Assembly (NCBI GenBank): GCA_017435505.1
Contig: JAFSEZ010000042.1
Location: 62,001-126,000 of the forward strand
Source of the DNA: Akkermansia sp.
GTDB lineage: Bacteria > Verrucomicrobiota > Verrucomicrobiia > Verrucomicrobiales > Akkermansiaceae
Direction: 5' to 3'
Length of the DNA stretch: 64,000 nucleotides
In this document: one piece after another, positions 59,223 through 64,000 of the stretch
Layout: the number at the start of each line of letters is the position of its first letter
Numbering within the stretch: position 1 is the stretch's first letter
Program-made: the position numbers and the translations under genes
The notes under the pieces: generated by a model
What the model was told of the DNA's origin: nothing
Database searches by the model: none
The model's input: only the letters and a program-made list of their open reading frames with translations

Positions 59223-60857
59223 TCACATTCTGGCTAAGCGCGGGGCACGCCGCACGTTGACCGGTGCCACAAGGCCATGGGAGAGGGCCTCCGCAAACAT
59301 GCGGGCAGCATCAGCACTATGCGAGCTGGCATCGTGCAGAGGTGTTTCGCGGCAGGTGCCGCCGGTTCCGGGTGGAGCCGTGCGGTACATTTCCAAGCAG
59401 GTGAGGCCGGAGGGCTCCCGCTCTCCCGTGGGGGTGAGCCGCTGGTTCATGGTATCCGGGTGAAACCAGCTGTGCACCAAGATACCACGCAGAGTGTTGA
59501 TGCCACGCCACACATCCGGTGTACGCGGCACTACACGCACGGCTACAATCCCCTGCTGTGCCAAGCTTTCTACGTAGGAATGCCCGTGCGGGTCGCGGTG
59601 AGCGGCATCATGCGGCAGGAAATGAGCCGCAATAGGGCCATAGCGTTGTTCCCATTCGCGTATTTTACCGGCGTAGTGCTCCAAGGGGTATTGATTGGCC
59701 GCATAGTGGTTGAGCCAGTATACATCCCGTCCCCAATGCTGGATGAGCCAAATGGCGGTGTGATCGCTCAGGCCCAAATCCCATGCGGCATACAGGGGCT
59801 CGGATGGGTTGTAAGCAAACGCCGCCCCGATGCGCCCCTGCTCTCGCAGCAAGGCCATTTGCGCTCCGTAGATAGCACCGTCATTCCCGGTGGAGAAAGC
59901 TTCTTCCGGGGTGGAGGGGTATTCTTGGCACATGGCGGCTCCCATGGTACGCTGCATGCGGGCATACCATTGCTTTTGACGGGGGCTGAGCTGCACTCCG
60001 CTTGTTTGCTCCAGCTTTTCGAAGTAAGCCGCAGCGGCATCATCCCAACCGGGGCGACCTGTGAGAGCGTAGTCCGGGTGGTCGAACCAGCTGAAGAAGA
60101 AGAATCGAAAATCCAACGGGGTGAGTTCCCCCTTAGCGGTATTCTCCATCGCCTGCACCATCATCTCATAATTCACCCCATAGCGCCCGCCCTCATGGGT
60201 GCTTTCCAAGATGATTGTACCCTCTGCCGGCACGGTGTTGATAGCCCCTGTGCGTATCTCGCGGGCACGCCACGGAGAATGCACCGACACGTGCGCCAGC
60301 TCCGACACATGAAGGAACTGCAAGGTACCACCACGCAGCGTTGTACCGAGGCGAATATCGCTTCCGTTGGCAAAGGCTAAGCGGGTGCGGGCATCTGCCA
60401 CGGGGCGCAACGCAGTCTTTTTCTGCACACCGGAACGTTGTTTGAGCAAAGCTCCGACATAAGCCAGGGCTTTTTCCTCACCCGCAGCACCGGGTGGCAC
60501 ATAATCCAAATGCTCCCAAGCAAAGCGGATTTTTTCCAATTTTTGCTCGGCATCGGGTAGAGTCTTATCAATGATACCGGCGTGATAATTGGGAGTGAAC
60601 AAACAACGATCCAGCATCAACATAGCCACATAGGTAGATATGCCCAACTGGCGCGCTTTGAGTACCGCATTGCGGTTCCACAAATGCCGATGCAGGCGAT
60701 TTTGCGCAGCGTTCAAGCGAAAGCGTTGCATGTGACCACTCTTCGATTCTATCCAATACAAATGGTTGAGACGCCAGAGAGGATTATCCAAACGCCCTTG
60801 GAGGGAGGGATGTAAATGCGGGGATTCCATAGGTGGGTTTTCCGGGAAGGCTTGCAT
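59223..60857 (-). CDS. Phage-type terminase large subunit-like protein
   Basis: The 544-aa protein has an ATPase half with a terminase-style Walker A variant (LKARQLGIST, residues about 66-75), a Walker B-like LQFLHVSELAHV and the coupling region IILESTHEGG. A second half has an RNase H-type nuclease pattern (YAAWDLGLSDHTAIWL, Asp360; later HDASSHSADAARM). Such proteins cut and pump phage DNA into capsids. The ATG shares its A with the stop of the upstream giant gene (TGATG). No small terminase, portal or capsid gene is recognised in the visible part; a prophage edge or domesticated element is likely. Confidence 0.8.
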   Translation of the reverse strand: MQAFPENPPMESPHLHPSLQGRLDNPLWRLNHLYWIESKSGHMQRFRLNAAQNRLHRHLWNRNAVLKARQLGISTYVAMLMLDRCLFTPNYHAGIIDKTLPDAEQKLEKIRFAWEHLDYVPPGAAGEEKALAYVGALLKQRSGVQKKTALRPVADARTRLAFANGSDIRLGTTLRGGTLQFLHVSELAHVSVHSPWRAREIRTGAINTVPAEGTIILESTHEGGRYGVNYEMMVQAMENTAKGELTPLDFRFFFFSWFDHPDYALTGRPGWDDAAAAYFEKLEQTSGVQLSPRQKQWYARMQRTMGAAMCQEYPSTPEEAFSTGNDGAIYGAQMALLREQGRIGAAFAYNPSEPLYAAWDLGLSDHTAIWLIQHWGRDVYWLNHYAANQYPLEHYAGKIREWEQRYGPIAAHFLPHDAAHRDPHGHSYVESLAQQGIVAVRVVPRTPDVWRGINTLRGILVHSWFHPDTMNQRLTPTGEREPSGLTCLEMYRTAPPGTGGTCRETPLHDASSHSADAARMFAEALSHGLVAPVNVRRAPRLARM

Positions 60858-63800
60858 CACGATTCATCGCCAAAATCAAAGAAACCTTGTGTATTTTTCG
60901 GCGGCCGAGGCGGATTTGCAGAGGATTTATCGGCGTGCTTCATGCCGGGGAATTTGAACTTGAACAAATCTCCCCAAATCTCCGCATTATCCGTTTCTAC
61001 CGCTTTCATGAGCGGTGCTTGGCGTGTTGTCTCCCTGCGTTCGGGGGCAGGAGGCCCATCTGCCGGCGCTACGGCGGGAGATGGCTCCTGCGGAGTGTTT
61101 TCTTCTCCTATCTTTTGGGGTGCCCAAATTTTTCTTTGCGAGGCCGACCCATTTTCATCGCTGAAATCAAATTGCATCAACTCCAGCGGGGGGAGGGTCG
61201 ATTCATCAATATCCACAGGGCCAAAATCCATATCCTCATCTTGCTCCATTCGGGATATGTCGTTGGCACGCGGCAGCTTGATGACCGGTAGCCATGTGCC
61301 TTCCTCCCGGTGTGCTGCGGCATCTGCCTCTGCTGCTTCTCCCTGCGACTCCGGACGAAGCGACTCAAATTGAGCTGCGGCCGGATTGGGTTTAGTTTGG
61401 CTGCGGGCAGCTTCTCGCAGCACGCGCAATACCAATTTGTAATCTCCCTCGCTGCTGCTCAAACGGCGGGTGATATTTCTCAAAGCAGAGCGCGATTCTG
61501 CCAAATCCGGGTGGCAGCTGTACTCATACAATGCATTGACCAGGCTGTAAGTTAATGCATTACCATAATCCATCTGCTCCGGATAAGCATCTTTGATTGT
61601 ATCCAAGAAACCGGTATCCACAGCCAGGCGCATCAACATTTCACGTGGACTCACATTAATGGGCGAGTCCTCATCGTCATAAGAAAACGGCTGTTGCACA
61701 ACAAGCTCCAGATTTTTATGAATGGCCGCCATGCGCCCCTTGTTGATACTATCTTCGTTGCGATTCTGGTCGCCCCATGGCCTGAAATCCTCCAGCGGCT
61801 GCATTGCCTGTGCCATCAATTCCGGCGTGTCTGCCATTTGGCGGCGGTAAATATAGGCGCCTCTGGTGCACTGCACCACGTAGGGATTGGACACATTGGG
61901 ATGGTGCGCAAAGAATTCTCCCGGCATCAGTCGGCACAGATCATGAACCTTGGCCGGATTTTTGTACACCGTGACGTTGCCAAACACCTCATCATGGTAA
62001 GACGGCAAAATGTAATTGTACAACAACTCTACATTGGGCACCTTGTCATACAAATCCAAATCCTCAATGGTTTCCATCCTGTCTCGCATTTGCAGAAGGG
62101 GCGCCAGAGGATTATCATCTATGACCCAATCATTCAAGCGAAGGGGCGTCTTACCTCCGCGTCCGCCATACACAACACCTTTCCAGCTAATGTTACCATC
62201 TTTGAAAATGGGGCGTGTAATGGGGTACATACGCAGCCGGCTCATCAATGCCAGTGCTTTCTCCACGCCTTGCGGCGCATCAGCATGCGTACTAAACTTA
62301 CCATAAGGCACCGCGGTAGGAGAAACCACATGTTTCCCGGGGTGCAGGGGTAGCCCGCGATAAAGGGGTTCTTCCAGCCGCTCCATCTTCGGCATTTTGC
62401 GGTCTATCATCAGCATGCTGGCATGCGGATCGTTGGCATCCAAATAGCCATATTGGCGCAAATGCGGGTGTAATCTCAGGACCGAAGCCATTTCGAACAC
62501 AGCCTTTTTAAGCCGCTTCACATCGCTCAAATTCTCCGCATCCACCACATCCACGACATCATCTGCCATCACATCCTCATCTTCCGGGGTGGCTTTCCGT
62601 TCCGGATGCAACACAGGATTCGCGAAAGCTGCTAACTTGCGTTTTTCATAATCGCTCAATCCGGGCCATCCGGCACAGGGGTTGTACAGGAAATTGAGCC
62701 ACCGCTGGGGCGCGCTGCGCAGCACCGCCTCCCCACACAGCAGCTGCATCCACCCCTGCTCCATCTGCATCACAGGGTCTTTACCCAAGGACATATCGAA
62801 AAGCTCCCGAATCTGCCAATCCTGTTCCTTCGAAAAGAATGCCTTATCACGCAAACTCTCCAGCATGGGTGCCAGTTTGCGCAATTTTTCGGAGGACTTG
62901 CGGTTCACCCACATCATGATTGTACGGTCGCGAACCCCGCGTGCCACGCTTTGTCGCGCACGCTCCTGGTACTCATTTATGGGTCTGTTTTCATGCACAA
63001 GCGGTGCCATCGGGGTTAGTTGCAACCACAAGCGAACAGAATCCGGCATCTCCATCTCATGTGGGTTGGCAAGAATATAGCAGGTGCTATACACGGCCAT
63101 CTTATTGGCTAAGGTAGACGTACGGTTGCGACTCCAACGTACCCGCGAGATGGTATTGGGATCCGGGAAATAGTTTTCCAATGCCTCTTTCATCAACGGA
63201 AATTCATTTTCCACCCGATTCAAAAAGCGTTCCACTATTTTGGAGTCAACGCGTTTAGATTTCATCGCACGCTCCCAAAAAACACGCGTGCGGCTTTGAA
63301 GATAAGCCACCGGAGACACCACAGTAAAGTGATTGACTTCATAGCGACCGGACAAGGCATCCGCCGCAGAAAAGAGCGGGCTAATACCATCATCCCTATC
63401 ATCATATATCGGATAAAAACGACTGGGGAGGCGGTCCACAAACATGCCGGGCTGCAAAAAGGCTGCACGTTCATCCATCAGTTTCAGCATATCGCGCGAG
63501 GCGTAGCTCATAATCTGGTCGTGCCCTATTAACGGATTCTGGCGGCTCAGCCACTCCTGCTTATGTTCGTCAACCGTATGAGCACGGCCTTGTGCTTTAC
63601 CCAGTGAAAAGAAATATACAGAATTAAATTTTTGGAAGTACGTTTGCGCATTAACCACATAATCATTGATAGCCTGTTGTTTCGTATTGTGCCAAGGAGA
63701 TTGTGTACCATCCGGGCGGCGAACAGCCCACAAAGTCCGGCCATGCTCCCCGGTATCTTGCAGTAACCTATTGCCAAACATTTGCTGAGTCAACGTAAAG

Positions 63801-64000
63801 ATGCGGTTATTCTCCGCACAGAAATCCGCATACTGCTGCGCTGCGACATTCTGCGCCAATTCGGCATGCGGGTAATTCGGTATGTTCTCCGTATCGCATG
63901 GCAGCTCACGCAAAAGCAGATGATTATAGGCTTGCAGCGGAGTCATCCCGACAGAAATGGCCGTGTAATAATCATTGCTGAGGGGCAACAAGTCTGCCAG
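60857..64000 (-). CDS. Giant protein of unknown function, N-terminus outside the window
   Basis: The frame is open from the right edge to the TGA at 60857-60859; about 1047 codons are visible and the start lies beyond 64000. No signal peptide or membrane segment is seen in the visible part. It is mostly soluble mixed sequence with many Arg and Met, an acidic spacer (PEDEDVMADDVVDVVDAENL) around the middle, and a disordered Pro/Glu/Ala-rich C-terminal 170 residues ending NTQGFFDFGDES. No family recognised. Translational coupling to the terminase-like gene argues for a joint role, perhaps in a virion or packaging module. Confidence 0.7.
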   Translation of the reverse strand: MADLLPLSNDYYTAISVGMTPLQAYNHLLLRELPCDTENIPNYPHAELAQNVAAQQYADFCAENNRIFTLTQQMFGNRLLQDTGEHGRTLWAVRRPDGTQSPWHNTKQQAINDYVVNAQTYFQKFNSVYFFSLGKAQGRAHTVDEHKQEWLSRQNPLIGHDQIMSYASRDMLKLMDERAAFLQPGMFVDRLPSRFYPIYDDRDDGISPLFSAADALSGRYEVNHFTVVSPVAYLQSRTRVFWERAMKSKRVDSKIVERFLNRVENEFPLMKEALENYFPDPNTISRVRWSRNRTSTLANKMAVYSTCYILANPHEMEMPDSVRLWLQLTPMAPLVHENRPINEYQERARQSVARGVRDRTIMMWVNRKSSEKLRKLAPMLESLRDKAFFSKEQDWQIRELFDMSLGKDPVMQMEQGWMQLLCGEAVLRSAPQRWLNFLYNPCAGWPGLSDYEKRKLAAFANPVLHPERKATPEDEDVMADDVVDVVDAENLSDVKRLKKAVFEMASVLRLHPHLRQYGYLDANDPHASMLMIDRKMPKMERLEEPLYRGLPLHPGKHVVSPTAVPYGKFSTHADAPQGVEKALALMSRLRMYPITRPIFKDGNISWKGVVYGGRGGKTPLRLNDWVIDDNPLAPLLQMRDRMETIEDLDLYDKVPNVELLYNYILPSYHDEVFGNVTVYKNPAKVHDLCRLMPGEFFAHHPNVSNPYVVQCTRGAYIYRRQMADTPELMAQAMQPLEDFRPWGDQNRNEDSINKGRMAAIHKNLELVVQQPFSYDDEDSPINVSPREMLMRLAVDTGFLDTIKDAYPEQMDYGNALTYSLVNALYEYSCHPDLAESRSALRNITRRLSSSEGDYKLVLRVLREAARSQTKPNPAAAQFESLRPESQGEAAEADAAAHREEGTWLPVIKLPRANDISRMEQDEDMDFGPVDIDESTLPPLELMQFDFSDENGSASQRKIWAPQKIGEENTPQEPSPAVAPADGPPAPERRETTRQAPLMKAVETDNAEIWGDLFKFKFPGMKHADKSSANPPRPPKNTQGFFDFGDES

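Follow-up and report, generated by a model that had tools for sequence, protein, structure and literature searches.

A probable gene transfer agent of short-tailed phage descent, dispersed over unlinked loci of Akkermansia chromosomes

The terminase locus between fhs and ileS

The window analysed here (64,000 nucleotides, G000:C34:62001-126000) comes from a metagenome-assembled genome (MAG) of Akkermansia of 2.0 Mb in 57 contigs, 94% complete. Contig C34 (136,896 bp) extends beyond the window, the edge of which cuts a giant gene. With the contig read to its end, a three-gene operon is found, composed of a gene for a 432-aa protein, the giant gene and terL, and enclosed by fhs and ileS:

59223 to 60860, minus strand: terL, terminase large subunit, 545 aa, final gene of the operon
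60857 to 64000, minus strand: gene of the giant, predicted internal-virion protein, C-terminal 1047 codons and stop (start at window-equivalent position 66898)
60857 to 60860, minus strand: GTGA, stop of the giant gene over the first TerL start, read directly from the sequence
66904 to 68202 (window-equivalent), minus strand as the giant gene: 432-codon gene, upstream neighbour of the giant gene
68595 to 71315 (window-equivalent), divergent from the 432-codon gene: ileS, then lspA

In full, the giant gene counts 2013 codons, even more than the original prediction had claimed (over 1040), and its frame is open from 60857 to 64000 without internal stop. On the minus strand its TGA (60859-60857) and the GTG of TerL (60860-60858) share the GTGA, an overlap which probably reflects translational coupling. 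In many relatives, the giant/TerL junction shows the same GTGA overlap or a gap or overlap of a few bases, the wider spacings of others being partly an artefact of over-extended starts of open reading frames (ORFs). It had also been correctly seen that terL is the last gene, here of a three-gene operon, and that fhs lies within 350 nt, as 334 nt separate the TerL stop from the fhs start (58888). The edge of a larger, unseen element did not materialize: to the right, the contig holds one more phage-like gene and then ileS, with no element of 30 genes, the remaining virion genes being at distant loci. A degraded relic was considered and rejected, the giant/TerL pair having no stop codons and a dN/dS of about 0.04-0.2, and so was a plain known prophage in G000, the pair being part of a three-gene island between host genes.

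As anticipated, the same gene pair occurs in related genomes. Intact homologs of the giant gene (1600-2013 codons) are present in about 30 Akkermansia genomes and the gene order of the TerL cassette is repeated in nearly every contig examined, so that the giant frame is not a product of chance. A conserved genomic site for the cassette was rejected, its flanks being common to close species only and different in distant ones. In eight contigs (L052, L059, L083-L087 and L092), two adjacent PDZ/serine-protease-like genes follow the cassette on the opposite strand. In L052 (G022:C40) and L092, a tail-tube B gene of the type here called GTA-type, after the gene transfer agent (GTA) discussed below, lies directly downstream of TerL, the two loci being separate elsewhere; this arrangement can be either a relocation or ancestral.

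TerL matches PF17289 (Terminase_6C; E=6.1e-5, above the family cut-off) and the phrog_2 terminase (E=4.9e-21). In the alignment, a Walker-A-like motif (KARQLGIST), a Walker-B-like motif (LQFLHVSE) and the acidic residues of the nuclease (WDLG, LPHD, ADAAR) are conserved throughout the GTA-type sequences, and these ATPase and nuclease motifs are largely kept also in two prophage sequences. With its Walker A/B motifs and RNase-H-like nuclease domain, TerL is, judged by its sequence, a true packaging ATPase/nuclease. Across 76 Akkermansia genomes, full-length GTA-type TerLs reach bit scores of 888-1094, as against 641 at most for prophage-type TerLs; prophage TerLs are at most ~50% identical to them. 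GTA TerLs cluster together, separately from those of prophages and viruses, with moderate support (82/85; 84% of bootstraps) in a tree where the prophage TerL of L062, on a very long branch, was probably read in the wrong frame. Outside Akkermansia, no GTA-type TerL was found in 289 genomes of the order, where only lower-scoring prophage-type TerLs were retrieved. Relatives in IMG/VR are 42-50% identical, apart from one short contig (L365, IMGVR_UViG_3300022601_000527; 13.7 kb) whose end carries a TerL of 81% identity and which is probably a host GTA locus classed as a virus. A partial TerL match, covering the nuclease half at ~41% identity in a 300-codon frame, was seen in a species devoid of the system (L397; G028:C33, ~36.8-37.4 kb).

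Neither the giant nor the 432-aa protein could be assigned to a Pfam or PHROG family, loose thresholds included, and no phage record was retrieved for them. When profiles were compared with those of a wide range of prophages the matches were weak, and it was a profile HMM search against the prophages with the closest major capsid proteins which succeeded. A profile of 37 giants detected the giants of two prophages, L360 (E=1.5e-27) and L347 (E=5.2e-24), over prophage residues 115-638, the homology lying in the N-terminal third of the giant protein, and a profile of 27 432-aa proteins detected the genes immediately upstream of these prophage giants (E=8.7e-9 and 1.7e-5). In the G060 prophage, tail-tube B is followed by the 432-like gene and then by the giant gene; in podoviruses, the genes of internal-virion proteins come after the tail-tube genes. 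These profile matches mark the giant and 432-aa proteins as homologs of two adjacent internal-virion (ejection-type) proteins of Akkermansia podoviruses, the prophage counterparts themselves being assigned as internal virion proteins from gene position and fold. The proposal that the giant protein is a virion partner of TerL was thus right in substance. That it would lack a recognisable fold holds for Pfam and PHROG but not for its N-terminal third, homologous to the giant of integrated phages.

Modelled with AlphaFold2, the 432-aa protein (pLDDT 85) is all-helical and, in a Foldseek search of the PDB, its highest-probability match is the phage ejectosome protein 8vb2_E (prob 0.60; E=0.38, not significant). 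The model of the N-terminal half of the giant protein (pLDDT 76) is helical as well; the search of the PDB with this half was blank, and in Foldseek the giant model finds counterparts among giant proteins from uncultured tailed phages (E=1.7e-4, weak support). The ejection proteins of T7/P22 type are likewise large, almost entirely helical and encoded by adjacent genes in a short-tailed virion set, although the resemblance of the 432-aa model to 8vb2_E is weak and the Akkermansia proteins differ in giving no significant family match and in the lack of a detectable lysozyme domain in the 432-aa protein, a domain present in some prophage counterparts. The giant sequence evolves fast (54% identity to its closest relative vs 94-95% for TerL), its frame and rough length being kept. 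The tail described as acidic is mildly so, with 32 D/E vs 17 K/R in residues 1851-2013, and is unconserved (conservation about 0.1).

Dispersal of the virion genes

The other genes of the particle are present in single GTA-type copies outside the TerL locus, the virion genes being split over at least four separate chromosomal loci:

Locus 1: 432-aa internal protein, giant internal protein and TerL; between fhs and ileS in G000
Locus 2: ~70-aa protein, portal, ~93-aa protein and scaffold, with tail-tube A (TTA) divergent
Locus 3: major capsid protein (MCP) alone; C20:15522-16475 in G000
Locus 4: tail-tube B (TTB) alone; C45:58965-61484 in G000

For TerL, portal, MCP, TTA, TTB and scaffold there are matches among PHROG families or the proteins of Akkermansia prophages (phrog_3742 for the scaffold, phrog_394 for TTA), and the ~70-aa gene before the GTA portal resembles the gene before a prophage portal; an ORF of ~200 aa at this place was unreliable and was dropped in favour of the real gene of ~70 aa. 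The genes recognised constitute a virion and packaging set, among which lysis, small terminase, tail-fibre/receptor-binding and regulator genes do not figure, and no promoter motif shared among the loci was evident by eye. The portal locus was absent from the search of G000, a 94%-complete MAG; because its closest relatives G033 and G079 carry this locus, it may fall in an assembly gap.

Since G000 is a MAG of 57 contigs and genuine podovirus prophages occur in the genus, a normal temperate phage split across contigs by draft assembly could be suspected. This reading is refuted by closed genomes and deserves practically no credence. Indeed, even the two loci nearest each other are separated by 82-348 kb in six closed genomes, and the others by more, each locus being one gene or a small cluster flanked by host genes; furthermore, GTA-type sequences form a group of their own and track the species tree. 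Nowhere, at the TerL locus or at the other loci read, was a contiguous genome with integrase and replication genes found. Such distances, presumably far beyond the capacity of such a particle, would make self-transmission as a phage practically impossible.

Taken by itself, the three-gene island resembles a partial structural module, as expected of a phage satellite encoding part of a virion and borrowing the rest from a helper phage. A satellite is nevertheless very unlikely, given that the same genomes encode, at other sites, almost all of a head, portal, tail and packaging set, that the surroundings of the loci examined showed no genes for integration or replication, and that inheritance is vertical rather than mobile.

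Distribution, inheritance and selection in Akkermansia

In a genus-wide search of 76 Akkermansia species, represented mostly by MAGs and with ORF starts picked mechanically (some of them over-extended), the GTA-type portal was found in 58 species, the MCP in 56, TTB in 58 and TerL in 58, the last count comprising 57 full-length genes and one fragment at a contig end. At least three of the four loci are present in 60 of the 76 species and none of the four in the other 16, with no species holding one or two. On the IleRS tree, the 16 species without the system, which show that it is dispensable, correspond to a clade of 13 species and three single lineages; this pattern points to about four events in which the unlinked loci were lost together, or to a history equivalent to that, and joint loss argues for one functional unit.

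The four loci are intact, vertically inherited and under purifying selection. In the 20 genomes with all four proteins, the pairwise distances of these correlate with those of IleRS (r=0.960-0.981), including inside each of the two major clades (0.84-0.97). For the TerL, portal, MCP, TTB, giant and 432-aa genes, dN/dS is mostly 0.02-0.2. Values of 0.26-0.45 for MCP and TTB in two close pairs are probably inflated by over-extended starts, and for the 432-aa gene a single very close pair, in which changes are few, gives 0.36. In most pairs dS is near the ileS value; in G000/G033, the giant and 432-aa genes have higher values.

These data weigh directly on the possibility of decaying remnants of one or several prophages persisting by chance. 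Fragmentation into pieces can produce such a picture, and at G062:C1, near 560 kb, an additional MCP copy resembling a relic lies with a fragment of TTB. Even so, frames intact in dozens of species, the low dN/dS quoted above and the joint retention or loss of unlinked loci speak against decay, which the selection data refute as long as the dN/dS estimates are correct and which is, in our opinion, scarcely tenable. At that G062 site (L349, G062:C1:550.5-570.5 kb), the second near-GTA-type capsid gene stands beside the TTB fragment and has the look of a phage relic.

A more serious alternative is that Akkermansia make a domesticated podovirus-like particle without gene transfer, be it a bacteriocin-like killing particle or a decoy against related phages. 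Selection and vertical inheritance suit any domesticated particle, and interference would have a possible target, as prophages of related podoviruses occur commonly in Akkermansia. However, the dN/dS of TerL (0.04-0.15) is close to the constraint on IleRS in most pairs, its ATPase and nuclease residues, superfluous for a DNA-free particle, are kept, and none of the portal, scaffold, capsid or internal proteins has been lost. We consider a particle without transfer rather improbable. DNA packaging is the best reading of the role of TerL because the gene is retained under near-housekeeping constraint, and a DNA-packaging particle with a function other than gene transfer is possible.

A putative gene transfer agent and its relatives

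The loci thus likely encode a domesticated, podovirus-derived particle, most probably a GTA, with its virion genes on at least four unlinked loci; the suggestion of a gene-transfer element or domesticated system made at the outset is the best-supported reading. Production of virus-like particles packaging DNA is probable in Akkermansia, the kit being kept intact and vertically inherited in most species. As we envision it, the loci would be expressed together in a subset of cells, the head being built on the portal by the scaffold and capsid protein, filled with host chromosomal DNA by TerL in a headful mode and fitted with a short tail formed by the two tail-tube proteins. The 432-aa and giant proteins would reside inside the head and be ejected first, opening a channel across the recipient envelope, through which DNA could enter and then recombine.

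Six features have been used to define GTAs: particle proteins derived from tailed phages, for which sequence similarity is sufficient; encapsidation of mostly random host DNA; a fully endogenized genome, often in multiple loci; a head too small for all its own genes to be packaged; mostly vertical inheritance with host co-diversification; and delivery of the encapsidated DNA to other cells (PMC9662315). Tailed-phage proteins, endogenization and vertical inheritance are found in Akkermansia, and locus spacing makes it practically certain that the head would be too small for all its own genes, while random packaging and delivery are predictions of this reading. A core structural cluster, accompanied by accessory genes at other sites, is typical of known GTAs (PMC11841831), and dispersed operons have been mentioned for GTAs (PMC12946183). 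As in RcGTA (Rhodogtaviriformidae), BaGTA (Bartogtaviriformidae) and BhGTA (Brachygtaviriformidae), tailed-phage virion genes are carried on several chromosomal loci; the vertical inheritance, purifying selection and TerL group distinct from phages seen in known GTAs recur in the Akkermansia system, and a TerL outside the main cluster is likewise reported for the Brachyspira GTA. Differences are the host, the short-tailed (podovirus-type) gene set and the lack of a core head-tail cluster, the capsid, portal/scaffold, TTB and packaging/ejection modules each being separate.

Also related are the integrated podoviruses of Akkermansia (for example G060:C1:2.44-2.48 Mb, G061:C116, G017:C1:1.58-1.59 Mb and G022:C53), which possess homologous TerL, portal, scaffold, MCP, TTA and TTB and, in G060 and G061, homologs of the 432-aa and giant proteins, the 432-like gene again preceding the giant one. 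Unlike the GTA loci, these prophages form one contiguous block with an integrase and are sporadically distributed, and that of G060 has DNA-replication-type genes. The capsid proteins of L347/L348 (G060:C1:2.44-2.48 Mb) and L360 (G061:C116) are much nearer the GTA type than those of other prophages (E about 1e-147 to 1e-160), and the G060 podovirus carries an integrase. The G060 and G061 podoviruses are candidates for a sister phage lineage of the GTA.

In the literature searched, which omits most subscription papers and leaves priority uncertain, no description of a GTA in Akkermansia was found. In its main text, a study from 2026 on gut DNA packaged in capsids is silent on the genus, and a pangenome paper reports prophages for BAA-835, apparently with no detail on these loci. 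Our best reading is that this would be the first GTA in Akkermansia among the papers searched.

Finally, it appears likely that Akkermansia, including A. muciniphila (here G059, which we take to be ATCC BAA-835), has an independently domesticated GTA of short-tailed phage origin, on at least four unlinked loci without core cluster and predating the divergence of the two main Akkermansia clades, which may transfer host DNA between members of the genus in the gut. Characterised GTAs are few and mostly from Alphaproteobacteria. If confirmed, a GTA system would be present in a human gut bacterium that is intensively studied and counted among next-generation probiotics, offering a route for gene exchange within Akkermansia, and a giant protein family without Pfam or PHROG model would gain a likely identity. 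It would also mean that a particle can be maintained over the history of a genus without a structural cluster, a dispersal which would explain how prophage finders could miss the system.
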